Part shown: positions 21,452 through 43,392 of the stretch, piece by piece
Layout: the number at the start of each line of letters is the position of its first letter
How positions within the stretch are numbered: the stretch's first letter is position 1
NCBI RefSeq assembly: GCF_000002985.6
Contig: NC_003283.11
Location: forward strand, 8,804,001-8,868,000
Source of the DNA: Caenorhabditis elegans
Lineage: Eukaryota > Nematoda > Chromadorea > Rhabditida > Rhabditidae
Reading direction: 5' to 3'
Length of the DNA stretch: 64,000 bases
The notes under the pieces: generated by a model
The model's input: the letters and a program-made list of their open reading frames with translations, nothing else
What the model was told of the DNA's origin: nothing
Database searches by the model: none
Translations under genes and position numbers: made by a program

Positions 21452-21965
21452 TGTTGTGAGATGGTCCCATCTCCCAACTATCTGGTACTCTGAGACACTC
21501 GCGAATACTCCCATCGTGTTCGCCGTACCAGAAAACCTATAAACCGCTCCTTCCAGTCGCTCTATCTCCCCCTTTCTCCAATCTAATGCGCGCCCTCATT
21601 TGAATCTCCCGCCAAGCTCAATGGTCTCGCAGCGAGTGTGCGCCGCGGGTCTCACCGCGCGCGCCCTCCTTGCTCGTCCTAATTCGCTGGCCTAAATTAG
21701 TTTCGCCTCAACTCGCTTCACTCGTCTCGTCACCGCACCAGCGGCACGTTCCTTCCTTTAATTTAATTATTTTATATTAAACACTTCCCTTTCTATCATT
21801 CTTTAGCTAATAAATGGGGTTTCATGGTAAAACATGTGTTACTCGTTCACACCGCTTATCCTCCTCTTCGCTCGGCACTCTGCAAACGCCAGTTCTCTCT
21901 TAGACTCTTATTCCGGCTTGACCCCAGTTGCGGCTCCCCAACCCGCTTACACTGGGCGGTCAACA
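21452..21965 (+). repeat. 5' LTR
   Basis: 514 bp, TGTTGTGAG at the start and GGTCAACA at the end. It contains an AATAAA near 21809 and an initiation-prone CT-rich first half. It differs from the 3' LTR at offset 26 (C here, T there). Three CCGCT cores lie in it, but none is an exact copy of the internal octamer. Confidence 0.92.
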
Positions 21966-21983
21966 TGGTGCATCGACCGAACC
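21966..21983 (+). other. Primer binding site
   Basis: Directly after the LTR end comes TGGTGCATCGACCG. The first ten bases are complementary to the 3' end of a tRNA-Gly(GCC)-like molecule ending CGATGCACCA. The match beyond ten bases is imperfect. The tRNA sequence is recalled, not searched. Confidence 0.55.
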
Positions 21984-22116
21984 ACCCCAGAGCTCCTAGT
22001 GACTCTGGAGTGGAATCGAGCCGTTGGGAAAGAGAGAGCTGTGTGCCCAGAACTAGAGTAGGAAAAATTAGGATCTGAACGAAAACGTGTGATCTGCCAG
22101 GACCTCTAATTTATTA

Positions 22117-22420
22117 GCGTCCGCTTCACGTTACTGCTTAATCTGGATCCCCCGGAGGAAGATCTTGATCACCTTCGGAGAAACCCCACTCGGGGCCGCG
22201 GAGGCGATCTAATACCACCGGAGGGACCAAGCGATAACTGTAATGACGAAGAGGTTCATGGACGATTCGCATCCGCTTCACTTTACTGCTTATTCTGGAT
22301 CCCCCGGAGGAGAGGAGATCTGGATCACCTTCGGAGAAACCCCACTCGGGGCCGCGGAGGCGATTTAATATCCCCGGAGGGACCAAGCGACAACGGTAAT
22401 GACGAAGAAGTGCGTGGACG
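22117..22420 (+). repeat. Two tandem ~150-bp units in 5' leader
   Basis: Two consecutive similar units each run from a TCCGCTTCAC block through GGATCCCCCGGAGG and CACTCGGGGCCGCGG to GACCAAGCGA and a GACGAAGA stretch. The CCCCCGGAGG core recurs at about 28662 and 28783, tying distant parts of the element together. Confidence 0.75.
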
Positions 22421-22760
22421 ACGACAGGACGCTAGCCTAGTCGAGATTTTCTCCTTCGGGGGATTCTCCTTCGGCTGGCTGCTGCTTCTTGGCTCGGGAC
22501 GACGACAGGACGCTGGCCAAGTCGAGATATTCTCCTCCGGGAGATTCTCCTTCGGCTGGCTGCTGCTTCTCGGCTCGGGACGACGACAGGACGCTGGCCA
22601 AGTCGAGACATTCTCCTTCGGGAGATTCTCCTTCGGCTGGCTGCTGCTTCTTGGCTCGGGACGACGACAGGACGCTAGCCAAGTTCGAGACATTCTCTTT
22701 CGAGAGATTCTCCTTCGGCTGGCTGCTGCTTCTTGGCTCATGACGACGACGGGTCACTTG
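22416..22760 (+). repeat. ~81-bp tandem array in 5' leader
   Basis: Four to five units of about 81 bp each contain GACGACGACAGGACGC, a CAAGTCGAGA block and TTCGGCTGGCTGCTGCTTCT. The unit length is a multiple of three and open frames exist on both strands (22410-22847 + and 22325-22741 -). These are probably a by-product of repetition rather than real genes. Confidence 0.8.
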
Positions 22761-23044
22761 CTGGCCAACTTCGGGACTTCTTCTCTTCGGAGAACCGCTG
22801 CCCGCTGTTGGCCCACCGGGACGACGGGACGCTGGCCATTTTCGTGATCTTCTCCTTCATCCGTTTTTGGCTCTTGGCTCATGACAACGATCGGGACATT
22901 GGCCAGCCGCTGCACAATCTCCGTCATCCGCTGGTCTCCAATTTGCTTCAATTCGGATTTCCCCACGATTAAGATCGATCGGGATATCCAGAACATGAAG
23001 CAGATCACCCCCTTCGTTGATCATCGGAACTCCTCTCTCTCACC

Positions 23045-23255
23045 TCGACACGACTTTGAATTTAAGCATCTTGACGTTTTCTTCTAGGGGGTTTCGTTCA
23101 GCATCTGCCTGTAAATACACCGGGTGCCATGCCATCTCAAAACTCATCCAAAAAATTCTTTACTCCCACAGATTCTAAATCATGGGCGAGAGAATTACAT
23201 GAAATTTTGGGATGGCGAACGCACCTTTAAACGATCCTGATGATCAAGTTTCAAA
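23045..23255 (+). ncRNA. Dispersed structured element, copy 1
   Basis: First of three ~200-bp copies. A long imperfect hairpin is visible: GGTGC (23123-23127) with GCACC (23221-23225), then GCCATCTCAAAA (23131-23142) with TTTTGGGATGGC (23205-23216, one G-T wobble), then inner pairing of AATTCT with AGAATT and CCCA with TGGG. It starts with a CGACTTTGAATTT...TTTTCTTCTAGGGGG lead-in resembling a 3' splice site and ends near CGATCCTGATGA. No coding potential. The RNA class is unknown. Confidence 0.6.
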
Positions 23256-24164
23256 GCCGACGTCTTTCGATTCGACCAGCATTTAAACCTGCAATAACAG
23301 TAATTATTTGTTGACGAATCAATCTTCACCCCTCCTTATTCGACTATGCGTCACTTGGATCCACTAAGCTCATTAGATATCCAAAATGGCAGCACAAGTA
23401 ATTCAGATTTTGATCATTATTCGGAAAACAGCTAAAATGCATTTTGTACTTAATGACGAATCTATCTTCTCCTTTTTTCAATTTTTTCAGGCACTGCTAC
23501 AGGTTCACTAAGCTCGGGAAGTGACCAATCGTGTAGATTCCGGAATTAAAATACGCGTGGCTGAAGGAATCTGCATGCATTGACGCTCCCCAGAGTTTTA
23601 ACGAATCCAAGCGGAGCCCATCCTTTCATCTAGTTGAGCGGTTTCTATTTTCCCTTGAGCTGACTTCTCGTTGACTATTTTCCTCGAAAATCTGTGACGA
23701 AACGCATTTGTGACAATTCTCACTAAATTCAGTGATTTTCCACCTCATCTGGAGAAAATTATTGAAGAAATTGTTATTAAAATGTGATTTCAATTTAATT
23801 TTAACCAGAAAAAGTCAATTTTATCCGGAAATACTCCGATACACGCTGAAAACTCCTTAAAATTCCACTGAACCACCTCTCGAAACGATTGAAATTCAAA
23901 TTTTGCGCGGGTTACGGTAGGCGGCGGTGATAGCACAGAGTACGCAGTACGCAGAGTGAACATTAGTCTAAGGTTCCCCCCCCCAAAATTCACACGAATT
24001 TTGGGATTTTTGGGGATTTCCACGGATTTTTGATTCATTTTAGCTCAATTTTTGTGTTTTCTCCTCCGTTTTTTTCGAAACTTTTCGTAATATTTTTTGT
24101 TTCTTCAATTGATCTCTTGAATATTCATCGTGAATTACAGTAAAACAGCCGGATCCCACCGAGA

Positions 24165-24374
24165 ATGAGAAGCTCAACCAGCAAAACAGGACTCCATCCT
24201 CTCCAAACACCCGCTCAGCTCCCAATCGTAAGACTTTTCGTTGAAAATACCATTATTATTCAATTTAAAATGCTTATATCACACCGAGAGACAGTTACCC
24301 TGATCTCTCAATCCTCGAATTCAGCTCCAAAAGCCCGGCAACCCCGGAGCACAGGGGATGAATTCAAAAAACGA
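24165..24374 (+). other. Possible short leader exons upstream of gene A
   Basis: An ATG at 24165 opens a 21-codon frame ending at a GTAAG donor (24228). An acceptor ...AATTCAG at about 24324 would join it to a short open stretch ending in TAA near 24374. It lies downstream of a TTACAG acceptor-like site. It could be a leader exon or chance. Weakly supported. Confidence 0.2.
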
Positions 24375-24739
24375 GTAAATTGGTTCTCGATCTGCGCTGG
24401 CTGGCACAGATCTGCCAAATGAGATTCGAAATTAACAATTTCACTCGTTACCTGAAAATTAATAACTTTTAAATACTACTGAAAAAAAGCCCTTACCTTT
24501 TCGTGGGAAATTTTTTCTCTTGTCATTATTTTGGACAGCTATTTTGAAATGCGTGAATTCTTATCGAAAATGATGATTAAGATTAAGTCACAAAGAAGAC
24601 AGACCGAGCACAGTCTCTCTGATTTCACTTAGCTTAACTTAATTATCCATTACCTTTTTGTTCGCTCATGCTTAACTCGCTCACACTCAACAAAATCTTC
24701 TTTAAAATCACTAGTTTTACGAACGTTTATATTTTCTAG

Positions 24740-25909
24740 ATGGAAGAAAACCAATCGTCCCACACACTTGAGGAAAAGGTCGAGCCAACCGCTTCTCCCG
24801 ACACTCTTTGCGACGATCCTGGTCAGCTTGCACAAGGAATGAGAACATCCGAGGAACATCAACCGCTCAAGCAACACTTGGGAGGTTAGTGAATTTTAAT
24901 GGAGAAAACACGATCAAAAGAAGAAGAAGACGAAGAATTTTTGGTGTTAGAAAATGTTTTTCAAGAAATAGAAAAGATTTCAAAAGTCATGGTGGTGACT
25001 TCACAATTACTGAGCATACTCAGTGATTGGAAACGCCATCAAACTACGAAAATCACCTCGCTTCTTGAGAAACGGCCCTAATAATCAATTATTAATTCAT
25101 TCTCTTTTCAGAGATCACCGAGATGTGCAGCAACATGCAATTGACCGTGGAAGAATCCAAGCTGAAGGTGGATAGTGTCTCCTCGATGATAGCCACCCAC
25201 ATGGGAAGAGAAAAGTCATCATCCGCTACCACATCAGCATCGCTCCACTACATTTGCGGAGCAATCGCCAACATACAGGGTATCGTAAAAGTTTTCGTTA
25301 ACAATCTCGTAAATTATTGATTTTTGATTTTTAGAGAGACTTGCGGCCAACCACACGACGGTGATAAACGACTTGGACGAGTGCAAAAGGGATAGGGAGG
25401 ATGTACGTGTCTCCCTCGAGAACATCATCAACCGCTGTACCCGGAACACCTGCTTCTCTGTGACTGTCCACGCTTTTGGAATCTTCGACGCGTCTGGTCT
25501 AGGCCAAGCCAGGCTGGTCGCGGAGGCCCAAACCGCGAATGGTAAAGAGGTGGCGATCTTTGTAAAAGACACACCGAAGTACTACTCGCGCGCTGGCTTC
25601 GCGAAGATCCATAGCGACGACAACGCGGAGAACCATCGTGCTTCAGCACTTCGACAAGGAGTCATGGAATGGGCAAGAGGACACGACAACTGGTATGAGC
25701 ACTACGCAGATTGGATGGATTATCATCCGAACCAAATCCCGCTCACATGTCCATGCATCAGTACCCGTACGTCACCAACCGCTCTACATGATCGCCGCGA
25801 ACAATGCATTATCCGAAAACTTGCACAACTCTCCACGATCGTCTTGATCGACGGAACACGAGTGGTCCCGTTTGAGGAAATGCAGACGCTCGTTATCGAC
25901 CTCCAGTGA
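24740..25909 (+). CDS. Retroelement accessory gene A, spliced, unknown function
   Basis: Three exons, 24740-24884, 25112-25279 and 25335-25909, with borders GTTAGT/TTTTCAG and GTATCG/TTTTTAG, join in phase to 295 residues. The ATG comes directly after a TATTTTCTAG acceptor, so this reading frame begins at a splice junction (cis- or trans-spliced). Residues 1-48 are polar and probably disordered. About 50-150 look helical and coiled-coil-prone (EESKLKVDSVSSM, DECKRDREDVRVSLEN). The C-terminal half is more globular, with several cysteines and aromatic residues (MEWARGHDNWYEHYADW). I recognise no enzyme motif. The gene carries five exact CANCCGCT octamers, as in the rest of the element, so it has long been part of it. 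Possible roles are structural or RNA-binding; not assigned. Confidence 0.65.
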
Positions 25910-26182
25910 CTGGCTCAACATTTGGCTCCCTCAAAATAACAAGAACAATAATTCTTCATCAACCGCTGGAAAAAACCGATTAAACAACTAATACTTGATT
26001 ATCACTTCTAATTTTTTCTTTGCTCTAATGTCTGATTAATTTTCTTCGTTAAGATCTGTTGCTTATATCTCTTGGATTATTGATTATTTTGCCACGGTTT
26101 ACTTCCGAACTCCACTTATCTATATTCGAACTAATGCACGTTCAAAGTTCATTAAACTTGAATTACAGCATACACTTGAAAC

Positions 26183-27441
26183 ATGGGAGGCAGAAAGTCC
26201 AACAAAGCAAAAAATCAACAACCGCTGAACAACGACGTCACTTCGTCTCAACTCAGTGAGAATACCGACGGTGAAGTAGAGGCGACCCCTCCGAAGAACA
26301 TCCAAATCGACGAGTGCCCACTCAACACATCAGGTGCAGCGGAATACCACGGAGATTCCAGTCCACTCATCCGCTCCGCGTCTCTCCTCGATAGCAGCAT
26401 TTCTACTATTGAGCACGAAGAGATCGTGGTTATGGACATGGACACGGAACACCCAAATGAAAGTGACAATTATGGTAGAGGTATGATTTTCGGTTGCAGA
26501 GAAAAAATATTCTTACAGACGACCCGAATGCATCATCCGCTCTCGAAGCATGGATGAAGGAATGGAAGGAATTCGCGACGGTGAACGAAAGGGACCGATT
26601 CGAGGCACAAGCATCATTGACAGCTCTGAATGGCTCCATGACGGCACTCAAAGCGCAGTTGCACACGGTCGAAAGCATCTGCAATCGCCTGGAGACGCAA
26701 ATAATGCATGAGCACCACGTGGACAACGATTCAAGACAAGCACAAGCCCGCCGCTCATCATCCGCTGAATCCACCGGAACTTCTTCCAAGGGAAATCTGC
26801 AAAAGAACAAGGACAAAAAGCCGGCAAAAGCCTACTCAGGCTCAGTAAGTAATTTATCAGTACATTCATTTCATCAACACAAGGAGATTATCTCACCCAC
26901 GTCCTTTTCCAGTATTGCATCTTCTGCCGCAGAGCCTCCCACAAATCCATCGACTGCAGAACAACGACATTCTACCTCCACAGAGAGAATCGTGCCCGCT
27001 CCAATGGATACTGTAACAAGTGCCTTCAACCGCTGATTCAATCCGACGCAGGTCACCACTTGAGCTGCACAGAGCCGAAAGTCTCGTGCGCCTACCGCCA
27101 CGAGCACTCGGAGAATCAAGCCAAGAGTGGTCACAACGAGGTATTCTGTCCGCTCCAATTTGGCAAAAAACCGGAAAAGGCCACCGTGGCCGGGAACAAC
27201 TCCAACAAGCGCGCTAGGACTGCTTCACCAACCGCTGTCAAGGCAGACGTTAAGCCAAAGGATTCGAAGGCTAATTTATTTTTTTATTCGGGAAAAAATG
27301 AAACAAAAAATTATTTATTGCGGAACTTTTCGAGACGTCAACTTACACCGGCTTTCTTTACAGGTTGAGACCAAGCGTTCCAAAACCCAACCGCTCGCCA
27401 CTGTTCCGGCGGTACAGGGTACGGAAATCACCATAGATTGA
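26183..27441 (+). CDS. Retroelement accessory gene B, spliced Gag-like CCHC protein
   Basis: Exons 26183-26480, 26519-26844 and 26913-27248 join in phase. A last exon 27364-27441 (acceptor TTTACAG) is likely, giving about 345 residues; if that intron is kept, the frame stops at 27368. The protein starts MGGRKSNKAK, matching an N-myristoylation signal (G2, S6). The N-terminal third is acidic and Ser/Thr-rich; the middle (about 100-165) is helical and probably coiled coil. After the splice at 26913 a knuckle of exact CX2CX4HX4C spacing appears (CIFCRRASHKSIDC), followed by a second Cys/His cluster (CNKC...HHLSC), then a basic Lys-rich tail. This order (membrane-binding N terminus, helical core, zinc knuckle, basic tail) resembles a retroviral Gag, separate from the gag of the pol frame. 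An ATTACAG acceptor lies about 14 bp upstream of the ATG. Confidence 0.65.
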
Positions 27442-27984
27442 GCCAAGCGCCGGTCTACTCCCACATCTCACCACATAAGGACCGTACCCCATTGTTGATT
27501 TTTAATTTATTTAAATTATTGTCTCCCCGTTACCCAATCATCCAAAAAGTTGTTTACCACCCGCTAAAAAATCTCATAATACTCGTCTCACCCCCCTTTG
27601 TTCTTAACAGTCTCTGTGATAGCCAGAGGCGGCTGTTCCATCGCTATCTTTCACCCCAATAAACCCTTTACGAGTAGCCTTATCATTCCTTCAATTTCGT
27701 TCAAAAAATGAGTTTAGATACTCAATAACTATATTTATAAATTCTCAATTGTAAATTTAAAAAGGGAGTGAAAGGCACCAGCCTACTTGTATAGAAACCT
27801 AAAAAATACCAATCTAATTTCCTGAAGCAGCTTAAAAAATTCGGGGCCGTGTTAATCACCTCCAGAAACTTAAAAGATGCCCTCACAATGGAAATTAAAA
27901 CACAAACAACAAATAAATTATTATCTTTTGGAAAAAAAAAGTAGCACATCCGCTCCTTTTTCAAACAAAATTTCTTGATCACCG

Positions 27985-28205
27985 TCGACGCGACTTTGAA
28001 TCCAACATCATCTTGACGTTTTCTTCTAGGGGGTCTCGTTCAGCATCTGCCTGTAAATACACCGGGTGCCATGCTATCTCAAAATTCATCCTAAAAATTC
28101 TCTACTCCCAACAGATTCTAAATCATGGGCGAGAGAATTACATGAACCTTTGGGATGGCGAACGCACCTTTAAACGATCCTGATGACCAAGTTTTCAAAG
28201 CCGAG
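27985..28205 (+). ncRNA. Dispersed structured element, copy 2
   Basis: Same segment as at 23045 with about 90% identity by eye. Outer stem GGTGC (28075-28079) with GCACC (28164-28168). The middle stem GCTATCTCAAA pairs with CTTTGGGATGGC using two G-T wobbles, one where copy 1 has C-G. The internal AATTCT/AGAATT pairing is kept. Confidence 0.6.
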
Positions 28206-28653
28206 ACTTAACAAGAAATTACAAAAAGTAATAATTACAACAGTTTCTTGCTTTTTGTAGAAGTAGGTACAATACATCCGCTTCATAAAAAGAAATAAAT
28301 ATGAGTAACTTTTCCTATACTTCTAACGACTGTTTTAATTAACACGTACACAATTAGACTAACAGGAATAATACCATAATAAAGAAACTACAACAAAACT
28401 TAAAAATCTAAAAAAAGATTCTTCACAATTTCTTGTGCAGTAGTGACATGGTAATACATACACTTCTAACATAAATACGAAATCACAAAAGAATCTAATC
28501 AAATAAATAAAAAGTTCGACATAAGAGCAGATACCATCCGCTTTTATACAAAAGTTTCTTCCCGACAATGGCTCAAATAAGACTGAAAGATCGTTCGAAA
28601 CATCTGAAGACTTAAGAAGACATTACGAAGTAACTCAAACAAGAACCTTTTAT

Positions 28654-28870
28654 ACCTAAACCCCCGGAGGACATCCACCTTTAATTGGAATAAGTGCACA
28701 TGACTCTTAGGTCCAATAAGGAATTGATCCAACGGGAAAACATATAAAAATTTAAAAATCACTTAAGAAGTTTTAAACCTAAACCCCCGGAGGACAATCA
28801 CACCTAATTGAAGTAAGCAACACATGACACTTACATTCAATAAGGAATTGATCCAAAGGAAAATCATAAA
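28654..28870 (+). repeat. Pair of ~100-bp repeats with CCCCCGGAGGACA core
   Basis: Two diverged copies starting near 28654 and 28773 share ACCTAAACCCCCGGAGGACA, a CACATGACNCTTA block and CAATAAGGAATTGATCCAA. The CCCCCGGAGG core also occurs twice in the 5' leader repeats. Confidence 0.7.
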
Positions 28871-29220
28871 AAAAAAGAAAAACGGGTTGCGACAGCAACC
28901 TTTGCTGGTTAATAAAAATTTAGTCTAAATTATAAAAGGTTACTAGGAATTCTGGTGCTAGTCTACGTTTTTTTTTCAACTTTCGTTCATTCAATGATAC
29001 CTCTGAGCTAACTCATGAAAAAGCTGCTATCCGAATTCAAAGAAGTTTATTATACCACGTGATCACTTAGCGCACAGTCAGAGTGGCAGATTGACACCGG
29101 CTATCAAGTAGACATCCGTGCTGACTACGACTTTAGGACGTCGACATCCTATGACCGCTAGTTCAGAACATAATACAAACATCCTTCGAATTAGATTCCT
29201 TCCTCATATTACTATCCGCT

Positions 29221-29436
29221 TCGACACGACTTTGAATTTGACCATCTTGACGTTTTCTTCTAGGGGGTCTCGTTCAGCATCTGCCTGTAAATACACCGGG
29301 TGCCATGCTATCTCAAAAGTCATCCAAAAAATTCCTTACTCCCAACAGATACTTAATCATGGGCGAGAGAATTACATGAAATTTTGAGATAGCGAACGCA
29401 CCATTAAACGATCCTGATGAACAAGTTCAAAGACGA
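29221..29436 (+). ncRNA. Dispersed structured element, copy 3
   Basis: Third copy. The middle stem GCTATCTCAAAA / TTTTGAGATAGC is a perfect 12-bp match: relative to copy 1 two positions on each side changed together (C-G to T-A, and a T-G wobble to T-A). Outer GGTGC (29299-29303) and GCACC (29398-29402) are retained. Covariation across three copies argues for selection on RNA or cruciform structure. Confidence 0.62.
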
Positions 29437-29940
29437 TGTCAAATCAAGTAAGATAGTGGTAATCAGGAACAGTAGTTGAGAAGACAGAGTAGGAAGACAA
29501 ATTGACAAAACTCCAGAATATCCAAAACCCTCAGTAAAATCAAACTAGACCGGTGAGAAGTCCACGAGTATAGTATGAGCTAGCGCAACAAATTTTAGAG
29601 CAAATAAGTTTCCACGTCACCGATTAAATCCTAAATTCCCTCATACCGTTTCACGCTTTAATTCAATTCTCTCACTTCTTCTCTTCTTATCTCTCTTCAA
29701 TATCTCATTTGACCACGTGATACACGTAAACGTTATGAACCACTGCCCCAATTTCCAGCATATATAAAGGCGGAAATATCAGACTTTGGTCATAATCCTC
29801 TCTTCTTCTTCTCTTCTTCTTCTCTTCTTGCACTCCTTGATTCAGTTCTGCTCCAGCTGATCGTAAGTATTTGATATTCTGTTGACTACTATTCCTACAC
29901 TCACCGACTAAAGGTTCACAGTAACTTTTTACAGTGAAGT

Positions 29941-30921
29941 ATGGGGGATCCAGACGAGAGACCCTGGGAAATAGAACGTGTTCCGATACAGTTGCCACGA
30001 CAACATCCAGCTCCGATAGTAGAAGACATCCGCTATGAAGCCCTTAACATATTCCAGTTTTTTGGTATACGGTTTCCCTTTGATGAGCAAACGATCATTC
30101 GTTTTGCTACATTGGAGGAAAATTTTCCGCCGGAATTCAAACCGAATAATGTTATGGAGCGAGGTGGAATCCTTCTATTCATTTGGGCGGACCGGTTACC
30201 AACTCCAGCTACACATCTGCAACAATCCATCATCCGCTTACCACTTCTGGGACAGATCGCTGACCTTCCGAGATTTGTCTTTCTATATGCTCGTGCACAA
30301 AACGAACCTCGAGAAGGTGACAGAACAAACAGGTGCCCTCTATGTGGTTCACACTTATTGGGACTCCCCCTTGCTGATCACCGTCTTGAGAATTGCCCAT
30401 TTGGTATACTTGAAGGCGAACAACGGCTGGAATTCTTGGCCATAAACCACGTTTCCTACTGCCACATGTGCAACAGCCGCTCAGCCACTCATAGCCAATG
30501 CGCAAGACCACCATGTCGCCAATGTAACATAGTCGGACACACCGTAGCCTCAGGACTATGCGAATCTCCCATGGGCACCACGAATCTTGGACAACAACAT
30601 CTACTTCAACAAAGGGTCACCACCTTTCGTCGAAATCATCTGCTTCGCATCCGTGCACTGACCAACCGTCAGGACAGACCACTCCAATATAGATCGTACA
30701 CCGACCAGGCCTTCATCTATCTTGAGAGACGAGTGCAAAACAGACGAAATGAGATGATTGGATGGAGCTTCTACCACGATGACGCCGGCGAATTCCCTCA
30801 ACATCACCCTGGGAGATACTCCAACTACTTGGAAGAACGTCCGGTCCATTATCTATCACTCGCCCCACCTGAATATCATTCTCAGGCAGTGAATAGAATT
30901 CCAACGTTTGCACCAAGATAG
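29941..30921 (+). CDS. Retroelement accessory gene C, zinc-knuckle protein
   Basis: Single open frame of 326 residues whose ATG follows a TTTTTACAG acceptor by about 6 nt. The N-terminal 130 residues are hydrophobic-aromatic and probably globular. The middle contains three Cys/His clusters: CPLC...DHRLENC, CHMCNSRSATHSQC (CX2CX6HX2C) and CRQCNIVGHTVASGLC (CX2CX4HX6C), the last close to a CCHC knuckle. The C-terminal third is Arg/Tyr-rich and basic. A nucleic-acid-binding, nucleocapsid-like role is inferred. The stop is only 110 bp from the ATG of gene D, the spacing typical of genes inside a nematode operon. No homologue recognised. Confidence 0.65.
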   Translation: MGDPDERPWEIERVPIQLPRQHPAPIVEDIRYEALNIFQFFGIRFPFDEQTIIRFATLEENFPPEFKPNNVMERGGILLFIWADRLPTPATHLQQSIIRLPLLGQIADLPRFVFLYARAQNEPREGDRTNRCPLCGSHLLGLPLADHRLENCPFGILEGEQRLEFLAINHVSYCHMCNSRSATHSQCARPPCRQCNIVGHTVASGLCESPMGTTNLGQQHLLQQRVTTFRRNHLLRIRALTNRQDRPLQYRSYTDQAFIYLERRVQNRRNEMIGWSFYHDDAGEFPQHHPGRYSNYLEERPVHYLSLAPPEYHSQAVNRIPTFAPR

Positions 30922-32710: not shown

Positions 32711-32960
32711 TACTCTTTTCACATTTCCGATTATTTTCAACAACCGCTTATCGCTTGCCAACCACCCGCTGTTCATCAATAAACTCTCTTTCTTCCAAAA
32801 TCATCTTAAAAACGGTCTCTATTCCTATCGGTGGCTACAGAAAACAATATTTGTCTATCCAAAAAATTTATGCGCATAGTTACCACTACAACTCACGAAT
32901 CCGCTAATTAACCAACAACAAAAAAAAACCTATTTCCCTAGCCTTGATCAAGCTGTGGGC

Positions 32961-33192
32961 CTCCCGTTTCGCCCTGAGCGATTCACCTCCCGTTTCGCCC
33001 TGAGCGATTTACCTCCCGTTTCGCCCTGAGCAATTCAACTCCCGCTTCGCCCTGAGCAATTCAACTCCCGCTTCGCCCTGAGCGATTCACCTCCCGTTTC
33101 GCCCTGAGCGATTCACCTCCCGTTCGCCCTGAGCGATTCACCTCCCGTTTCGCCCTGAGCGATTCACCTCCCGCTTCGCCCTGAGCGATTCA
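32961..33192 (+). repeat. 26-bp tandem array upstream of gag
   Basis: Nine units of 26 bp (one of 25), each with CTCCCGYTTCGCCCTGAGC followed by RATTCAMY. Units vary at a T/C in CCGTTTC versus CCGCTTC and at GCGATT versus GCAATT. The array ends about 260 bp before the gag open frame and precedes the TTTCTTGTAG acceptor at about 33271-33280. A packaging, enhancer or splicing role is possible; unknown. Confidence 0.85.
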
Positions 33193-33455
33193 CTAAATAA
33201 GTAGCACTGGTAGCCTTATACCCCCTTCCTCTCTACTTTCCTCATCACCTTAACCTCTTATAAATTCTAATTTCTTGTAGGTTACTGGTTTAATTATTGT
33301 CTTCGGACAATCACCCTCATCTCTCCTAACTATCTCTCGGATCTTCCCGATCTCCCTCACCGGGACGGCGTCGCCACGCCTCAGAAGGCGGCACGGCGGT
33401 CCCACCAACTCCAGCCAATTGCGGAAAATCAACGAAAAAACGTACACGAGGACAG

Positions 33456-36400
33456 GTGTCCTTGGCGACACGTATCGTTGGCCCCCTCAAAAGGCGTATC
33501 AACCACAAGGTTGACGCAGCCAAGCGTATCTTGGCCGAGACTGAGGCTAAAATGGAAATTCTCCTGAACATGCCTCAGGATCAACTCCTCAGCAGCGAAG
33601 ACTCGACTTACCTCGACGCACTACTGATTCGTCTCCAGACGATCTTAGTTGCGCTCGAAGGTATGCGCGACCTTATCTCTGACAAATTCCGTGACCCGGA
33701 AATGATGGTCGATACTAATCGCCATCAATATCACCAGGAGGTGCTCGACTACCTCGAAAAGTCATCAACCGCTAGATTCGTAGACCACTTGACTCACGAC
33801 ATCCAACAGCTTGAGACTGAAATGAGAAGCCGAAACATCCCCATCACCCACTTCGATCCATCTCTGCTAGCAACCACCGACGTAGAAACAGGGGCCACCA
33901 CCGAGGACGACGCCAACGACGAGGAAAGGAGAGACATTGAGGCAACGATCGAGGACCACGCTCAGAACAATGGGCCGTCCGATCATCGTGTCATCTCTGA
34001 TCTTCGAACTCCTCACGGTAGCACGCCGTCTACAGGAACCCCTCGCCTATCTTCACCAGGCATGGTTTGGGACAACGAGGGACTGAGCCTGCACGATGAA
34101 TTACACCTCGCGAACTTGCTCGACCCCGCGAACCCACAGAGATCTCCAATGGCTCCTGCTGCTCCAACATCATCTGCTGCTGTTCCGACTCAATCTGCCG
34201 CTGCTCCGACGTCGTCTACCACTGCTCCGATGTCATCCGCTGCTGCTTACCATCCACATGGTCAACATGGTCAACATGGTCTACAACTCGGTGCTCCAGC
34301 TCATACCAATGGTGGTACTACTCGTCTACAGCAGCCGCTTGATCAAAGGATCCAGACAACTACACAAGGGGTACTCCAAGGGAAACGTGAGCAGCTCGAA
34401 CAGGGCCCGACGGAGACCCCACTCCTCGTCCAGCAAGCCCCTACAACTACGGGCCCAGGTACGCGAATTACACCACAAAGAGTTCTGAACGCGCCTGCCT
34501 TGCAAACACATCAGGTTTTAAACAGCCAGATGGGTTATCCAAGTGCAGGAGCTCATGATTACTCGACTTTTCACCCGCTCCTCCAATACGCACAACCTCG
34601 CGGTGAAGACACACTCACGCACAGACTCCTGGCGGCAATCGAAGCTATTGCCACAAGTCAGAGTCAGATGCAATCAGAGTTGACGTCACAAGGCCGCTCG
34701 GTACACGTGCTCACCGACAGAATGGAAGCTACAGAAAAGTTAATTGTGGAACCCAAAATCTTAAATACTACCGTCGCCGAAGAGACCAGTAGACCAGCTA
34801 TGCCACAGCCAACCCATGAAACGGCTCAGCAACAGCAAACCACTGGCTCCGAGTACGAATATGAGCCCGAGTCCGACGACAACAACCAACAACCGCTTAC
34901 TCCTCAAACACGCACCGAAATCCGGTACATCGAGGTGAAGAATAATGGTAGTCACGAGACTCAAAACTTATTAAAGTACCTCGGCAAATATGATGGTAAC
35001 TCAAATATTGACTCATTCCTCACCGACTTCAAAGAATCGGTCATGGAAAACGAAAACCTAAATCAAGCAAATAAATTCATGATCCTAAAAACTCACCTAT
35101 TAGGCAAAGCGCGTGACTGTATCTCTAGAGACCACGTAGCGGCTAAGGCGCTTGAGAAGACCATTACGTCTCTCAAATCTGTGTTTGGGAAGGATGAGAA
35201 TAAGACCAGCCTTCTAGCCCAAATCCACGCCATCGGTTTCCCTCAATCAGACGTGCGAGAAATGCGTAGGGCGATCGCAAAACATTCTATTCTTGCCGAA
35301 CAACTAGTGAACTCCGGCTTAGCAGCGAATGATGAGAGAACATTCACACCTCTCACATCTCGCCTACCACCCGCTATCCGCACAAGAGTCACTCAGTTCT
35401 GGGGCTCGAAAGGAGAAAATGCGACATTCCAAGAAATCTTTGACTATGTCACGACCTGCGTTGACGACATGGCCAGAGAATCAATCTTGGCCCTTAGACA
35501 TTTACCAACCGCTGAAAGCGAAACCGAAGTAGGACCACTCGGGATCCCATACTCAGGTCAAATCAATCACGCCTACGCCACCACCCAGAATCAGGAAAAC
35601 CCTAATGGAAAAAAGAAATCGATCGGCTGGACCGACAAACCGGTATACAAACCAGAAGATCACCCAAAGACCTACTACGACAGAAACACAGGGGAATCTT
35701 TACCAGGGTACTACGCTCCGGGACAGAAAGGACCACTGCTCCGCTTACTCCCGAGAACGTTCCCCCTGTACGAAGGTACCGCCAAAAAGACTTGCAGAGC
35801 ATGCAAAGGGAGCCATCACTCACTAAGATGTACGCTCTCTAGCAAAGACTTCAGGCAAGCCTTAATGGCATCTCGTCTATGCCCAATCTGCACTGGCACA
35901 CACAACGTGGAGCAGTGCAAATGCTTGATGAGATGCATTCTCTGTCAAGGGTTGCACCACACGGGAGGGTGCACACTGAAAGAGTATTATAGGGACTTGA
36001 AAAACTATCCGCCAACGCTCCGCCGCCCCAGCAGTTTTTTCGAGATAGCCGGGAAGGCCGGCATTTGGGACAAAACCAGCAATAAGCGGTTTTGGGCAGG
36101 CAGGGGGACAAATGTACCGAGCCCCCTGTCAACAGCTGTTTTGCCGCCAGCCTCAAATGTCTCCGATTCTTTTCATACCCACAGTACTCTTTCTCCAACA
36201 CCCGCTATCCCCACTATCAACCCGCTCCTAACTTTTATTCCAACGTTTTCCGATTCTGCACAAGTCCTAGCAAAACAAGAAATTTCACAATTCGTAGCAG
36301 TGCTTTCAAGATCAAATCCAGCTCACCAGCTGGCCGCGATTGTTGAGAAATCTGCGCAAGCCTCCCGCTTATCTTTCATATGCATTCGCACAAAGTCAAA

Positions 36401-37745
36401 TGATTGCATCCTGGCCCTCGTGGACTCAGGAGCTTCATTATCACTCTTGTCGCATCAACGAGCTGAACAGCTTCATATGAAAATCCTAGCCAGCACGAAT
36501 ATGCACTTATCTGGTTTCAACGGTGCAGTTACCCAAAAATCCCACGTATTCAAACTGCAATTAAAGATGAGAGCCTCTCAAAGAACTCTCACGCTAATGA
36601 TTGCCGGAATACCAAATATGCCAGAGACACCCTACAGCGCACCATTCTTTTCCGATGAGGACTTAGCTTACATGAATCGTCATAACATCGACCACTTTGA
36701 GATTACTTCTACCAATATTTACAATGGTAGACGAATCGATATGATTCTTGGTAACGATCTACTGGCATGGCTTAACGCTAACCCAGAGACCAAGAAACAT
36801 ATTCTTCCGTCTGGGAGGTTGGTAGAAATCACGGACTTTGGACACATTGTACATCCAGTCCCTGATACAACAATCTACCAAAACCACACCCAGATCGAAG
36901 TCATCAGTGAAACATTCATGCATGCATCCGCTCTCATCAACGGCCTCAATCCAGAAGACTCGAATCAAGCCCTAACACTTCAGGTAGAACAACAGTGGAA
37001 GTTAGAAAACATTGGCATCGAGGCACAGCCCTGGAATGACCATACTACAACATCCGCTAAAGATCTACAGGCATCATTCGAAAACTCCCTAAGGTATACA
37101 CCAGAAGGGATTCTCGAAGTTGCTTTTCCATTAAATGGAAATGAAGTACGCTTGAAAGACAATTATGAGGTGGCTGTGAAAAGATTACACGCTACGGTTA
37201 ACGCTCTCAAAAATTCCAAAAATCCAAATTTACTTAAACAATACGACGAAATTTTTAAAACCCAGGAAGCAAGTGGGATCATCGAATCTGTTACCCCAAA
37301 CATGAAATCAGAGACTAAGTACAACTATAACATGCCTCACAGAGCCGTGATCAAAGAGTCCTCAAATACCACCAAAGTGCGGGTCGTCTACGACGCATCT
37401 AGCCACGCAGTAGGTCAATTGAGTCTCAATGACGTGGTCCATGCGGGAGCAAACATGGTTATTCCTCTTTTCGGCATCCTCATCCGCTCACGGTTCATTA
37501 AACTGATGATCGTAGGAGATCTTGAAAAAGCCTTTCATCAGGTTCAAGTACAGCCCGAATTTAGGAACTTAACTCTATTTCTATGGCTAACGGATTTAAA
37601 TAAGCCGATTACGAGGGATAATATTTGCACCAAACGGTTTGTGCGCCTACCATTTGGCATGAGTTGTAGTCCCAATTTATTGGCTTCAACGATTGTAAAT
37701 TTCTTGGTACACAATCCAGATTCGGGAATTTGTGGTAAACCATGA
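33456..37745 (+). CDS. gag-protease-RT (N-terminal part) of BEL/Pao element, truncated RT
   Basis: The frame is open from about 33330, has no ATG until 33552 and has an AG acceptor at 33455, so translation probably begins on an upstream exon or at 33552. Order: helical N terminus; Pro/Gln/Ala-rich linker; a Gag core of the DUF1759 type (KYDGNSNIDSFLTDFK...); three knuckle-like motifs (CRACKGSHHSLRC, CPICTGTHNVEQC, CILCQGLHHTGGC); an aspartic protease with DSGAS at about 36425; then RT with the first catalytic aspartate region (VGDLEKAFHQV) and the RLPFGM motif. The frame ends at 37745, soon after FLVHN, where the YXDD catalytic region is expected. That block is absent and the reading frame changes, so the enzyme cannot be active as encoded. 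Family: BEL/Pao polyprotein, processed in virus-like particles. Confidence 0.85.
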   Translation: MSLATRIVGPLKRRINHKVDAAKRILAETEAKMEILLNMPQDQLLSSEDSTYLDALLIRLQTILVALEGMRDLISDKFRDPEMMVDTNRHQYHQEVLDYLEKSSTARFVDHLTHDIQQLETEMRSRNIPITHFDPSLLATTDVETGATTEDDANDEERRDIEATIEDHAQNNGPSDHRVISDLRTPHGSTPSTGTPRLSSPGMVWDNEGLSLHDELHLANLLDPANPQRSPMAPAAPTSSAAVPTQSAAAPTSSTTAPMSSAAAYHPHGQHGQHGLQLGAPAHTNGGTTRLQQPLDQRIQTTTQGVLQGKREQLEQGPTETPLLVQQAPTTTGPGTRITPQRVLNAPALQTHQVLNSQMGYPSAGAHDYSTFHPLLQYAQPRGEDTLTHRLLAAIEAIATSQSQMQSELTSQGRSVHVLTDRMEATEKLIVEPKILNTTVAEETSRPAMPQPTHETAQQQQTTGSEYEYEPESDDNNQQPLTPQTRTEIRYIEVKNNGSHETQNLLKYLGKYDGNSNIDSFLTDFKESVMENENLNQANKFMILKTHLLGKARDCISRDHVAAKALEKTITSLKSVFGKDENKTSLLAQIHAIGFPQSDVREMRRAIAKHSILAEQLVNSGLAANDERTFTPLTSRLPPAIRTRVTQFWGSKGENATFQEIFDYVTTCVDDMARESILALRHLPTAESETEVGPLGIPYSGQINHAYATTQNQENPNGKKKSIGWTDKPVYKPEDHPKTYYDRNTGESLPGYYAPGQKGPLLRLLPRTFPLYEGTAKKTCRACKGSHHSLRCTLSSKDFRQALMASRLCPICTGTHNVEQCKCLMRCILCQGLHHTGGCTLKEYYRDLKNYPPTLRRPSSFFEIAGKAGIWDKTSNKRFWAGRGTNVPSPLSTAVLPPASNVSDSFHTHSTLSPTPAIPTINPLLTFIPTFSDSAQVLAKQEISQFVAVLSRSNPAHQLAAIVEKSAQASRLSFICIRTKSNDCILALVDSGASLSLLSHQRAEQLHMKILASTNMHLSGFNGAVTQKSHVFKLQLKMRASQRTLTLMIAGIPNMPETPYSAPFFSDEDLAYMNRHNIDHFEITSTNIYNGRRIDMILGNDLLAWLNANPETKKHILPSGRLVEITDFGHIVHPVPDTTIYQNHTQIEVISETFMHASALINGLNPEDSNQALTLQVEQQWKLENIGIEAQPWNDHTTTSAKDLQASFENSLRYTPEGILEVAFPLNGNEVRLKDNYEVAVKRLHATVNALKNSKNPNLLKQYDEIFKTQEASGIIESVTPNMKSETKYNYNMPHRAVIKESSNTTKVRVVYDASSHAVGQLSLNDVVHAGANMVIPLFGILIRSRFIKLMIVGDLEKAFHQVQVQPEFRNLTLFLWLTDLNKPITRDNICTKRFVRLPFGMSCSPNLLASTIVNFLVHNPDSGICGKP

Positions 37746-38385
37746 TGAGAGTATGGAGAAAATAGACCCAAAAGACAGAGTATCCGATAGAACAATCAAG
37801 TTACTAGGAATGAAGTGGAATTCAAGCCCAGACGCAGATACTTACACCATCAAAATCGCCGATGTCCAAACCATTATGCATCCCACCAAAAGAGACGTTG
37901 CTTCTAAAATGGCTGAAACCTTTGACCCATTGGGACTAATCTCACCGATTCAAGTCTTAATGAAAAGGTTTATTCAAAAGCACGAAGTAAACTGGAAAGA
38001 CCCTATCCCTAAACACCTGCTAGATGACTGGCAAGCAATCCAAGCTTCCTTCATAGATCGTACAATAACGGTACCGAGAAGACTGACAACTGATTTCGAA
38101 TACAAAGAAATACAGTTACTGATCTTCTCGGACGCTTCTCAAGACATCTATGCAGCAGCCGCTTACGCCTACTTCTCATATGGTGACGATAGACCTCCAG
38201 TGATCTCCTTGATCACAAGCAAGAATAAGATTAAGCCATCCAAGGAGACCAATTGGACGATCCCAAAATTAGAATTGTTAGGAATTGAGATTGGATCAAA
38301 TCTGGCTTCTTCCATCGTGAAGGAGCTCAGTTGTAAAGTAACCAACATCCGCTTATTCACTGATAGCTCTTGCGCTCTGTACTGA
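37732..38385 (+). pseudogene. RT connection and RNase H fragment, out of frame with gag-RT
   Basis: This frame resumes with the typical segment after the BEL RT palm (MEKIDP..., TIKLLGMKW, FDPLGLISPI) and continues into RNase H (LLIFSDASQDIYAAAAY, KLELLGIEIG, LFTDSS). It overlaps the preceding frame by 14 nt in another register as the result of the internal deletion. It ends at an in-frame TGA (38383-38385) inside RNase H; the same register continues as the integrase frame. Without the YXDD block upstream and with this stop, no complete polymerase can be made. The lesions are described only as breaks. Confidence 0.85.
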
Positions 38386-38388
38386 ATT

Positions 38389-40839
38389 TTGTCGAAAAAG
38401 AACACACGTGTTTGGGTAGCAAATCGAATTGACCAAATTCACCTCAATCAAACACGAATGAGGGAATGCGGCATCGATACTTCCATTCACCACTGTCCGA
38501 CAAAAGACAATCCCGCAGACATCGCGACTAGAGGCATGAGCACATCAGAACTACAGAATAGTGACTTGTGGTTCAACGGACCGGAATTTCTTAAACAGAA
38601 ACCGGAAGACTGGCCATGTAAGATTGAAGGAACATTTACGTGCCCAGCTGAATTCCAGGCAGTGGTATTCGCAGAGATTCTTGACCCAAAGACCAAGAAG
38701 ACAAAGAAACCTCTCATGGAAAAAGCTGAAAAACCACCCGCTTCCGAAACAGTCTTACATATTCTTGAATTACCTTCCAAATTCGAATCGACCATCTCCT
38801 TTCGGTACACCAACTCTCTACGAAAATTAATGTTAATCACCTATAGGACCCTCTTAGCTATCAGTAAAATGCGTAAGGGAAAAGTTCCGACTTCTCGGAT
38901 TCTGGAGAAGTTTATGATGGCACCCAATCTTCTCGAGAAGAGAAGGGTCGCACGACATTATATCTTCCTCCAGCATTACAAAGAATGCGCGGAGCAAGGG
39001 CTCACATTTCCATCATCATTGAGGTATTATGTTGCACCTGACGGGCTATATCGTGTGCTGAAGCAAGCTAAGTCACCGACTCTGCCCGCTGAAGCTAACG
39101 AGCCAATTCTGGTTCACCCGAAACATCCGCTTGCTAATCTTCTAATGCTCGAAACTCACGAGATCAACGGTCATTTACCGGAACAGTACACTAGGGCAGC
39201 TCTGCGCACAAGATACTGGCTACCGAACGACAGTTCAGTAGCTCGATCTGTAATCAGCAAATGCGTTCAGTGCAAAAAGGTTCATGGATTACCCTTTCCA
39301 TACCCGCACTCTATGGCTTTGCCTGAAAGCAGAACAACGCCTTCAACCCCGTTCCAAAATGCCGGTCTTGATTACATGGGGCCTGTAGAATATAGTAAAG
39401 ACGACGGAGTTTCAACTGGAAAAGCCTACGTGCTAATCTATACGTGTTTCACCACTAGGGCGGCCATCTTAAGAGTAGTGTCTGACGGCAGTACGGAGAG
39501 ATTCATTATGGCTCTAAAAACCATCTTTCATCAGGTGGGAGTCCCGAAAATGGTCTACTCTGACAACGCTCCAGCATTCATCTTAGGTGGATCGATTCTA
39601 AACGACGACATCTCAACGTGGGAACATCATTCCGACCCTCTGACGTCCTTTATGGCCACGCAATCCATCCACTTTTTCCGTATCACCCCCGTGTCTCCAT
39701 GGCAAGGCGGGATGTATGAGAGAATTGTAGGATTGGTGAAGCATCAGATCCTTAAAGTATGCGGAGCGGACAGGTTCGACTACTTCACGTTGTCATACAT
39801 TGTCTCTAGTGCTCAAGCTATGGTAAATAATCGCCCGCTCATGCAACACTCGCGCCAACCGGATGATATGATCGCCATCCGACCATGCGATTTCCTGAAC
39901 CCGGGAGTCATGATCGAGACGCCACCTACTGAGTTCACACCATCCGCTCCCAGCGGTGTCCCCGAACAAAGAGTACGTGCTCATCTTGCAAGCCTGGAAG
40001 AAGCCATCGAGCTTCTCTGGAAATACTGGTCACTAGGTTACATAATCAATCTCAGACAGAACCATCACAGAAATGTGAGATGCGCTGATCTGAAACCAAC
40101 GGTCGGACAAGTAGTGCTAGTAAACACCAACCTGGTCAAGCGACAGAATTGGCCTCTAGGAGTAATCGTACAAGTCAATAGGTCAGAAAGGACGGATGAA
40201 ATCCGTACAGCAGTGGTAAAATGCAAGGGGAAGTTGTACAAAAGGTCTGTATGCCAACTCATTCCACTCGAAGTCCAATCTTCGGATATGGACAGTCTTC
40301 CTGATACGGAAAATCGGGAAGATGGTCAAGAGCGTTTGATGGATGCAGGAATGGCCGTTCAACATCCGTCGGCTCCCCCTTTGACTATTCCATCCGCTGC
40401 CCTTTTCGACTCACCGGACGAACATTACTCTCCGGAGCTTTTTCCTCGTGAGACTTGCCCAAACGTAACTGAAGCTACTGAGAACCCTTCATCAAAAATT
40501 CAAAATAATACCATGATCCCCTTAGTCCCCAATACTTCTACTATTCAAAACGCCCGCTTAGATTTACACGAAAGGGTAGGAGAAGAAGATAATTTCGAAA
40601 ACCCCGACTTAGACCAAGTCCACGTTGACAGTGAGGACGAAGTTGAGTACCAGGACCCGAGCACAACCGAGGAATTGCCCACAGCAATTCCTGGTCGCTC
40701 AAGACCTCTTCTACCACGAAAGGTCAAGAAGCCTGTGTACTACAACTACTTCCTTCACACAACGACGGCCGTCAAGTCGACGTTTTCAACCCTGGAGTGT
40801 TGTGAGATGGTCCCATCTCCCAATTATCTGGTACTCTGA
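38389..40839 (+). CDS. RNase H end plus integrase of BEL/Pao element
   Basis: 816-codon frame in the same register as the RNase H fragment, separated from it only by the TGA at 38383. It begins with the end of RNase H (HHCPTKDNPADIATRG) and then integrase: the zinc-binding H-H-C-C part (THEINGH...CVQCKKVHG), and the catalytic D, D, E in LDYMGP, SDNAPAF and GGMYERIVG, all present. A DUF5641-like C-terminal domain (VRCADLKPTVGQVV...VYNRSVC-type region near 40080-40265) follows, then an acidic tail of about 190 residues that runs 14 codons into the 3' LTR. No envelope-like frame is found downstream. Integrase itself looks intact, but there is no start for separate translation. Confidence 0.85.
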   Translation: MSKKNTRVWVANRIDQIHLNQTRMRECGIDTSIHHCPTKDNPADIATRGMSTSELQNSDLWFNGPEFLKQKPEDWPCKIEGTFTCPAEFQAVVFAEILDPKTKKTKKPLMEKAEKPPASETVLHILELPSKFESTISFRYTNSLRKLMLITYRTLLAISKMRKGKVPTSRILEKFMMAPNLLEKRRVARHYIFLQHYKECAEQGLTFPSSLRYYVAPDGLYRVLKQAKSPTLPAEANEPILVHPKHPLANLLMLETHEINGHLPEQYTRAALRTRYWLPNDSSVARSVISKCVQCKKVHGLPFPYPHSMALPESRTTPSTPFQNAGLDYMGPVEYSKDDGVSTGKAYVLIYTCFTTRAAILRVVSDGSTERFIMALKTIFHQVGVPKMVYSDNAPAFILGGSILNDDISTWEHHSDPLTSFMATQSIHFFRITPVSPWQGGMYERIVGLVKHQILKVCGADRFDYFTLSYIVSSAQAMVNNRPLMQHSRQPDDMIAIRPCDFLNPGVMIETPPTEFTPSAPSGVPEQRVRAHLASLEEAIELLWKYWSLGYIINLRQNHHRNVRCADLKPTVGQVVLVNTNLVKRQNWPLGVIVQVNRSERTDEIRTAVVKCKGKLYKRSVCQLIPLEVQSSDMDSLPDTENREDGQERLMDAGMAVQHPSAPPLTIPSAALFDSPDEHYSPELFPRETCPNVTEATENPSSKIQNNTMIPLVPNTSTIQNARLDLHERVGEEDNFENPDLDQVHVDSEDEVEYQDPSTTEELPTAIPGRSRPLLPRKVKKPVYYNYFLHTTTAVKSTFSTLECCEMVPSPNYLVL

Positions 40840-41311
40840 GACACTCGCGAATACTCCCATCGTGTTCGCCGTACCAGAAAACCTATAAACCGCTCCTTCC
40901 AGTCGCTCTATCTCCCCCTTTCTCCAATCTAATGCGCGCCCTCATTTGAATCTCCCGCCAAGCTCAATGGTCTCGCAGCGAGTGTGCGCCGCGGGTCTCA
41001 CCGCGCGCGCCCTCCTTGCTCGTCCTAATTCGCTGGCCTAAATTAGTTTCGCCTCAACTCGCTTCACTCGTCTCGTCACCGCACCAGCGGCACGTTCCTT
41101 CCTTTAATTTAATTATTTTATATTAAACACTTCCCTTTCTATCATTCTTTAGCTAATAAATGGGGTTTCATGGTAAAACATGTGTTACTCGTTCACACCG
41201 CTTATCCTCCTCTTCGCTCGGCACTCTGCAAACGCCAGTTCTCTCTTAGACTCTTATTCCGGCTTGACCCCAGTTGCGGCTCCCCAACCCGCTTACACTG
41301 GGCGGTCAACA
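40798..41311 (+). repeat. 3' LTR
   Basis: 514 bp, identical by eye to the 5' LTR except T at 40824. The bases just upstream (CCTGGAGTG) are a poor polypurine tract. The right flank ATAA duplicates the left flank of the element. Confidence 0.92.
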
Positions 41312-43350: not shown

Positions 43351-43392
43351 GTTGGGTTCGGTTGGTTTGTTGTATGAAATCGAGAGATAAAA

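Follow-up and report, generated by a model that had tools for sequence, protein, structure and literature searches.

Retroelements are usually taken to recognise their own RNA through a localised packaging site. In the Neisseriaceae, DNA uptake sequences occur as many copies of one word, form lineage dialects and have a specific protein reader; they serve bacterial DNA uptake, whereas the word described here would concern the RNA of a mobile element.

In Arabidopsis, VANC21 binds the word YAGTATTAY, which is dense and one-oriented in VANDAL21 and has C-type and T-type variants, while the targets of VANC6 carry a different word (PMC5735166). As that source describes the system, it shares with the present locus a short exact word in one orientation within a mobile-element family, a different word for each family with one-base variants, and a reader acting in trans, which is element-encoded there and a candidate here. 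VANDAL elements are DNA transposons of a plant, whereas the present element is an LTR retrotransposon of an animal. According to the same account, VANDAL words lie mainly in non-coding tandem repeats; the sites here are single, and 27 of the 48 lie in eight ORFs. The strand split at the present locus points to RNA.

Dispersed packaging signals of MS2 and other single-stranded RNA viruses likewise place many short protein sites over the genomic RNA (PMC6281560), and many sites were found here on the sense genomic RNA, the protein partner being a candidate. In the viral cases covered by that source the sequences vary around a shared motif and are presented in stem-loops in MS2, whereas the word here is exact and structure prediction gave no sign of stem-loops around it; concerted switching of the word between lineages is a further difference. 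Sireviruses (plant Ty1/copia) are LTR retrotransposons in which an octamer likewise recurs. Their multiple polypurine tracts are described as clustering near the 3' LTR, and further repeated motifs as lying within the LTRs or upstream of env (PMC2829016), whereas the present word, the pyrimidine-rich CANCCGCT, is distributed throughout the internal region (22270-40398).

The element and its octamer

The window (the whole 64-kb stretch of DNA analysed) contains at positions 21452-41311 a young BEL/Pao LTR retrotransposon of C. elegans belonging to the Cer8/Cer9 group, with a Pao-type peptidase A17 and an integrase between matching LTRs. Its location, C5:8825452-8845298, agrees with the published chromosome V element, given as 'Mixed Cer8 and Cer9 sequence (19.8 kb)' at chrV:8826000-8837000 (PMC4367959). 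The same paper lists the locus among the largest nuclear-RNAi silencing clusters and states that retrotransposition in C. elegans 'has never been reported'. The 514-nt LTRs (TG...CA; 21452-21965 and 40798-41311, both +), found by a repeat search as a 300-nt pair, are identical at 513 of 514 positions, and the 4-base target duplication ATAA was read by eye from the flanks (21448-21451 and 41312-41315). The element is C-rich on the + strand and contains tandem repeats.

All genes described lie on the + strand. The gene sdg-1 (W09B7.2/F07B7.2) occupies 24160-25909, the start being approximate and the last open stretch lying at 25328-25906. Three of the four sdg-1 oligos tried (from PMC11793870) match: P81 at 25872, P143 in reverse-complemented form at 24162, and P145 at 24065 through its first 30 bases; the typed form of P82 gave no match. 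It is followed by the small zinc-finger gene B (26479-27368), made up of overlapping ORFs in different frames (26479-27036 and 26853-27368) with an intron read by eye at about 26845-26912 and a zinc-binding part at about 26913-27150. An ORF with CCHC-like clusters (29938-30921) has relatives in the related elements R4 (57%) and R10 (42%). Two more ORFs (31548-32180 and 32210-32710) have relatives in R4 (60% and 66%) and more distant ones in R10 (28% and 23%). Gag and the start of pol are encoded at 33330-37745, where an aspartyl protease scored just above the cut-off, and DUF1759 and reverse transcriptase below theirs; three CCHC knuckles of Gag lie at 35793-35972. The Pao peptidase A17 domain (37699-38385, E 3.4e-54) is in another frame than 33330-37745 and is followed by the integrase region (Integrase_H2C2, DUF5641; 38386-40839).

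The initial annotation of this DNA had reported from a hand count a dispersed octamer on the + strand of the element, with none noticed on the - strand or in the host flanks. Exact counting bore this out: CANCCGCT occurs 48 times on the + strand and 0 times on the - strand of 21452-41311, with 0 copies in the rest of the window, host flanks included. The skew noted for the shorter CCGCT was also real, the estimate of about 74 against 7-8 becoming 76 on + and 10 on -, and octamers are present at three sites cited as 27948, 28276 and 28536, but their true starts lie one base earlier (27947, 28275 and 28535). The N position is T in 20 octamers, A in 14, C in 10 and G in 4. The LTRs contain none of the 48, which are spaced at a mean of 386 (CV 0.77), an arrangement matched or exceeded in evenness by 5% of 2000 uniform placements. 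Over the whole genome (100,286,401 bases), the word is found 2230 times forward and 2088 times in reverse, or about once per 46 kb per strand.

The order-1 expectation for the element is 1.24 copies, and Markov simulations of order 1, 2 and 3 (200 each) gave means of 1.35, 2.14 and 4.68 with maxima of 5, 10 and 12. The claim that protein selection does not explain the sites held as well: the eight ORFs contain 27 octamers against a mean of 2.24 in codon-preserving shuffles (maximum 8 in 1000). Neither equal counts on the two strands nor a lack of excess over the null was found. Taken together, these ORFs carry the word in all three frames (5, 15 and 7 in frames 0, 1 and 2). The word is similarly dense inside and outside ORFs, with 27 copies in the 10.8 kb of the eight ORFs and 19 copies in 8.7 kb of sequence outside them; the octamers at 27027 and 27229 belong to neither set. 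The word is precise, since each of its 21 one-substitution neighbours has at most 6 copies on the + strand. Structure prediction put the mean unpaired probability of the octamers at 0.479; with shuffled flanks it was 0.541, and other GC-matched 8-mers averaged 0.441. These values give no sign of loop presentation and a slight excess of pairing. Known RNA families gave 0 matches at gathering scores. The counts support a strand- and sequence-specific signal beyond protein coding that appears to act in RNA. The interpretation given by the initial annotation is partly supported, for a signal that points to the RNA and not for spread by gene conversion, its alternative.

Conservation and the words of related elements

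Counts for relatives refer to the stretches examined, the elements being partly covered. Four related copies carry CANCCGCT in the sense orientation only (31/0, 17/0, 29/0 and 27/0). In three of them, C2, X17 and X7, no integrase match was found and several sdg-1 matches contain stops; the octamers nonetheless persist. Conservation among relatives, proposed earlier as a check, was confirmed: across the copies the seven fixed bases changed in 28 of 525 cells, less than half as often as the flanks (340 of 2944), while N changed more (22 of 75). Octamers were kept in 59 of 76 cases versus 1170 of 2265 for local CpG 8-mers.

The main finding beyond the initial annotation is that relatives of this element use words of their own. 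CANCCGCG is the word of R4 (25 sense, 0 antisense) and R14 (15/1), GCTGCCC that of R3 (19/0), and TANTACC the probable word of R6 (11/1). Support for the R6 word was marginal in the stretch where it was discovered, 4 of 40 simulations being equally extreme, and 3 further copies lie in 2.0 kb outside the discovery data. The ORFs of R4 hold 9 copies of CANCCGCG against a codon-preserving null of 0.42, and five ORFs of R3 hold 14 copies of GCTGCCC against null means summing to 2.2. On the scale used for comparison, the best scores of the window element (W), R3, R4 and R14 range from -14 to -53. No comparable word was found in R1, R2 and R10 (best scores -4.9, -4.9 and -5.3; 1, 2 and 0 of 15 simulations each as extreme), the best word of R10, AGCGATAC with 5 copies, being borderline relative to its 15 simulations. 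R5, for which no simulations of its own were run, showed no word of comparable strength either. Best scores of -3.1, -4.6 and -6.0, again without simulations of their own, were obtained for the Ty3-type stretch L057 and both host flanks, that of -6.0 being a palindrome; L057 is presumably Cer1. A possible word of R9 was dropped, as it included locally duplicated stretches.

Where R4 or R14 retains CANCCGC at a site homologous to one in W, the final base is G in 11 cases and T in 1, and two sister lineages show the same single-letter difference at nine matching sites. Site turnover is high in the same alignments: neither word is present at 17 of the 24 W sites aligned to R4 or at 8 of the 13 aligned to R14, and words of R4 and R14 also lie at positions where W lacks one.

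A candidate reader and the competing explanations

The preferred reading, to which a probability of about 0.5 is given, is that the octamer serves as a dispersed tag on the sense RNA, read in trans by an element-encoded protein, most likely that of gene B. We infer that the bound molecule is RNA, that gene B supplies the reader, and what its binding would do. A sequence-specific protein encoded by the family, with the gene B zinc-finger protein ranked before the Gag zinc knuckles, would recognise the octamer on the sense (genomic) RNA, and the many copies along the RNA could allow its cooperative coating. Coated family RNA, including that of defective copies, would be distinguished from that of the host and treated as 'self', which may mean packaging into particles, shielding from germline small-RNA silencing, or unspliced export. 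Reader and tag would change together, giving each lineage its own word (CANCCGCT; CANCCGCG; GCTGCCC; probably TANTACC).

A wider reading is offered only tentatively: BEL/Pao elements of C. elegans may carry an RNA 'password', a family word with a co-evolving gene B reader that sets the RNAs of the family, defective ones included, apart as self from those of the host and from rival elements. The part of it in which words diverge like dialects, dispersed sites switching the same letter, is put forward with the same reserve. With an exact, dispersed, sense-only word, dialects among lineages and a gene that may encode the reader, the system would allow direct tests of self-recognition and co-evolution in a model animal, and heritable RNA silencing is already being studied at its locus (sdg-1). 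Scanning for strand-skewed dispersed words would be a simple means of seeking similar systems in other elements.

Gene B was found in W, C3, R4, R3 and R6, all of them word-bearing, and was not found in the examined stretches of R1, R2, R5 and R10, which have no comparable word; the association covers few, related lineages and partly covered elements. In C2, X17, X7 and R14 the word is present and gene B was not found in the stretches examined, so supply in trans must be assumed for these copies. A lone relative of gene B lies at X:13601147, its surrounding 10 kb containing no word and no visible element. Further gene B loci were located at V:17571209, X:16833820 and V:20304392. Of the five sequences of gene B compared with Pfam, a single one gave a match, a weak one to Zn_Ribbon_TF (E 0.015); PDB gave no match up to E 5, and a single-sequence fold prediction of the zinc part was poor (mean pLDDT 38). 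The ORF at 29938-30921 was rejected as the reader: it has a relative in R10, which has no comparable word, and gave no tblastn match in the word-bearing stretches L041 (C3) or L055 (R14). SDG-1 was rejected as sole reader, having no match at R3, R6 or C3.

Sequence composition and codon usage, like tandem duplication and gene conversion, can be set aside almost entirely as the origin of the sites. The C-rich + strand and the tandem repeats agree with such an origin, but the Markov and codon-preserving nulls stay far below the observed counts, the flanks of the 48 sites are unrelated (25+25 bases; mean identity 26%, best pair 54%), and related words occur in divergent elements. Recognition by a host factor of the splicing, export or small-RNA machinery would fit the spread of sites over ORFs and non-coding stretches. 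It is improbable, given that the host flanks within the window lack the word and that sister lineages within one host differ in their word by a concerted one-base switch. The lineage-specific words and the concerted T-to-G switch likewise make it unlikely that the sole partner is a fixed host RNA, for which the initial annotation had allowed, or a fixed host protein.

Two further explanations, each doubtful, keep an element-encoded protein. By analogy with VANC, such a protein might bind the word in chromosomal DNA and lift germline chromatin silencing from the whole element; this would suit the silencing cluster at the locus (PMC4367959) and the presence there of SDG-1, which is enriched in germ granules (PMC11793870). 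Against it, the octamers are single, have unrelated flanks and occur in coding DNA too, in contrast to the tandem-repeat words described for VANDAL (PMC5735166), and a site in double-stranded DNA would not be expected to keep one orientation at 48 separately placed positions, unless its orientation matters. Alternatively, the three CCHC knuckles of Gag could bind the sites as packaging signals scattered along the RNA, with no part for gene B; for this unlikely arrangement the multiple coat-protein sites described in RNA viruses (PMC6281560) are a precedent. The knuckles are readable in W, C3, R4, R14, R2, R5 and R10; those of R1 are readable too but contain a stop. However, R1, R2, R5 and R10 keep them and have no word of comparable strength, the broken R3 copy has the word with the knuckle region apparently largely missing, and structure prediction gave no sign of a stem-loop context for the octamers. 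Profile comparison of gene B with the Gag knuckles aligned a single knuckle at a probability of 5.7%, and this gives no support for their common descent. Across the relatives, gene B as recognised in these sequences follows the word better than the Gag knuckles do.

Sense-strand octamer in W and related copies

The BEL/Pao LTR retrotransposon at 21452-41311 of the window, hereafter W, is the home of sdg-1. By exact count it carries the octamer CANCCGCT (seven fixed bases and one free position, N) 48 times on the + strand and 0 times on the - strand, and the octamer is absent from the rest of the 64 kb window. The initial annotation had given about 48 sense copies, none reversed and none in the host flanks, which is confirmed on all points. 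For its CCGCT estimate (about 74 versus 7-8), the exact counts within W are 76 on the + and 10 on the - strand. The six most over-represented 8-mers of W include CATCCGCT, CAACCGCT and CACCCGCT, whereas the remaining three derive from a C run or from the tandem repeat with a 26-base unit. The 21 substitution neighbours of the octamer have 0-6 copies each on the + strand, and a weaker extended form, CANCANCCGCT, is found at 23 of the 48 sites.

Markov simulations of W (200 for each of orders 1, 2 and 3) gave octamer means of 1.35, 2.14 and 4.68 with maxima of 5, 10 and 12. The shuffled controls proposed together with the both-strand count also left the excess standing: the eight ORFs of W contain 27 octamers versus a mean of 2.24 and a maximum of 8 in 1000 codon-preserving shuffles. 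Non-ORF stretches, 8.7 kb in all, contain 19 octamers; the last two (27027, 27229) belong to neither set. Spacing is slightly more even than by chance (CV 0.77; 5% of 2000 random placements were as even). The predicted RNA structure context of the octamers shows nothing special. The LTRs of W lack the octamer, and the copies X17 and X7 have two octamers just within the 5' end, where the LTR departs from that of W.

Relatives were searched for in this genome only (100,286,401 bases, 7 contigs; the window is C5:8804001-8868000). The LTR search revealed copies with LTRs 93-97% identical over the best stretch, and the integrase search gave 34 matches, none of them in C2, X17 or X7. Several elements are represented by partial sequence, and counts refer to the stretches examined. 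In these, sense/antisense CANCCGCT counts are 31/0 in C3 (C3:13229625-13243199), 17/0 in C2 (C2:2155239-2164772), 29/0 in X17 (C6:17116753-17129453) and 27/0 in X7 (C6:7344566-7365705). Octamers of W are retained at 24/27, 9/14, 10/14 and 16/21 sites in C3, C2, X17 and X7, respectively, versus 530/813, 180/424, 196/398 and 264/630 for local CpG 8-mers. Conservation of the sites above their flanks, also raised in the initial annotation, was found: by position, differences occur in 28 of 525 cells for the seven specified bases, 22 of 75 for N and 340 of 2944 for the flanks. Neither set of counts is independent, since the copies share ancestry and the background 8-mers overlap.

Words of other lineages

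Some other lineages possess their own dispersed sense-strand motifs (words). R4 (C5:18.44 Mb; 'Cer8-1', 19.4 kb in PMC4367959) contains 25 sense and 0 antisense CANCCGCG and two CANCCGCT. R14 (C5:5.18 Mb; 'Cer9-1', 11.5 kb in the same paper) contains 15 sense and 1 antisense CANCCGCG and no sense CANCCGCT. CANCCGCG is absent from W. In R3 (C5:19.27 Mb), GCTGCCC occurs 19 times in sense and 0 times in antisense; one copy is present in both LTRs and another in the 3' LTR. The best-word score of R3, R4 and R14 was equalled in 0 of 15 simulations each. Codon-preserving shuffles gave 0.42 versus 9 words observed for R4, and null means summing to 2.2 versus 14 observed for the five ORFs of R3.

Among 24 sites of W aligned to R4, six read CANCCGCG, one CANCCGCT and 17 neither; for the 13 aligned to R14 the numbers are five, 0 and eight. 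The switch from CANCCGCT to CANCCGCG is seen at nine distinct sites of W, and R4 and R14 also have words at places where W has none. In the first stretch of R6 (C2:13.25 Mb) TANTACC was the best word, yet a result at least this extreme came up in 4 of 40 simulations. A further 2.0 kb outside this discovery stretch yielded three more TANTACC versus about 0.3 expected (0.21 computed for 1.5 kb of locus L060), and the sense/antisense count over 6.0 kb is 11/1. No word of comparable strength was found in R1 (C6:3.75 Mb), R2 (C4:9.55 Mb), R5 (C5:8.48 Mb) or R10 (C6:9.2 Mb), with simulations for R1, R2 and R10; the best word of R10 lies at the edge of its own simulations.

Candidate readers of the word

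Gene B of W (26479-27368) encodes a zinc-binding domain in which Cys and His residues are conserved. Its relatives in C3, R4 and R3 are 82%, 39% and 26% identical to W. Further matches lie at X:13601147, V:17571209, X:16833820, V:20304392 and, upstream of the R6 integrase, at C2:13247231, whose identity to the X:13601147 copy is 33% (E 1.6e-6). With a profile built from W, C3, R4 and R3, X:13601147 (E 8.7e-13) was the sole match below E 0.5 among the loci searched, which included stretches of R1, R2, R5, R10, C2, X17, X7 and R14 and excluded C2:13247231. By these searches, therefore, the four lineages in which gene B was found (W together with C3, R4, R3 and R6) have a word, and the four without it (R1, R2, R5 and R10) show none of comparable strength. 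C2, X17, X7 and R14 have a word without gene B in the stretches examined and would need supply in trans. No word was found in the 10 kb examined around the lone copy at X:13601147. This relative (C6:13601123-13601392; 4123-4392 of locus L058) has ORFs upstream, no direct repeats or long element ORF were seen within 10 kb, and it is possibly a host gene or a relic.

Relatives of sdg-1 were matched at W, R4, R14, C2, X17 and X7, with no match at R3, R6 or C3. Gag knuckles can be read in the sequences of W, C3, R4, R14, R2, R5 and R10, and also in R1, with a stop inside.

The sequence pattern is consistent with a reader that the elements themselves encode and that acts in trans on sense RNA: the word is one-stranded, indifferent to coding and conserved at seven of its eight places, persists in copies that gave no integrase match, and has been switched in concert between lineages of one host. 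Judged by distribution, gene B is the best candidate for this reader. The main rival is a DNA-level system like that of VANC, the Arabidopsis VANDAL-encoded anti-silencing protein that binds DNA words. Binding by the putative RNA reader might serve packaging, protection from silencing or export. The main text of PMC11793870 and PMC4367959 does not mention packaging, an octamer or CCGCT. No paper on a Cer9 packaging motif in C. elegans was found in the literature searched, which covers few subscription journals.

Identity and setting of W

W has 514-nt LTRs with one base different between them, a target duplication ATAA, and a Pao peptidase A17 domain and an integrase in the internal region. 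In PMC4367959, chrV:8826000-8837000 and the identical interval 8868000-8879000 are both labelled 'Mixed Cer8 and Cer9 sequence (19.8 kb)' and belong to the sixteen largest nuclear-RNAi silencing clusters of that study. Cer8 and Cer9 are united in one cluster in PMC1858694. Three of four oligos tried from PMC11793870 matched the window, including P81 at 25872 and P143 at 24162; these matches locate sdg-1 to approximately 24.16-25.91 kb.

The window is part of a tandem duplication with a period of 42,094, which is 99.99% identical from 9208 onward for the part in the window. The duplication (9208-51301 and onward) takes in W, H3- and H2B-like ORFs recognized by eye and a portion of a large ORF. 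Another copy of the element begins at 63546. The pol of W shows a frame change near 37.7 kb and an in-frame stop before 38386 (37699-38386), and C3 has open reading over the integrase stretch matching that of W. The 26-base repeat (32961-33193, about 10 copies) resembles units of a many-tens-copy array inside X7 (L044/L045). A 185-base segment is present three times (23067-23251, 28009-28193 and 29243-29427; similarity to the reference copy 66% and 94%) and is repeated in related elements as well. The H3-like ORF is flanked on both sides by the arms of an inverted repeat (43320-43365 and 44395-44440) whose core is GGCCCTNNNNAGGGCC-like; these are perhaps histone 3' stem-loops.
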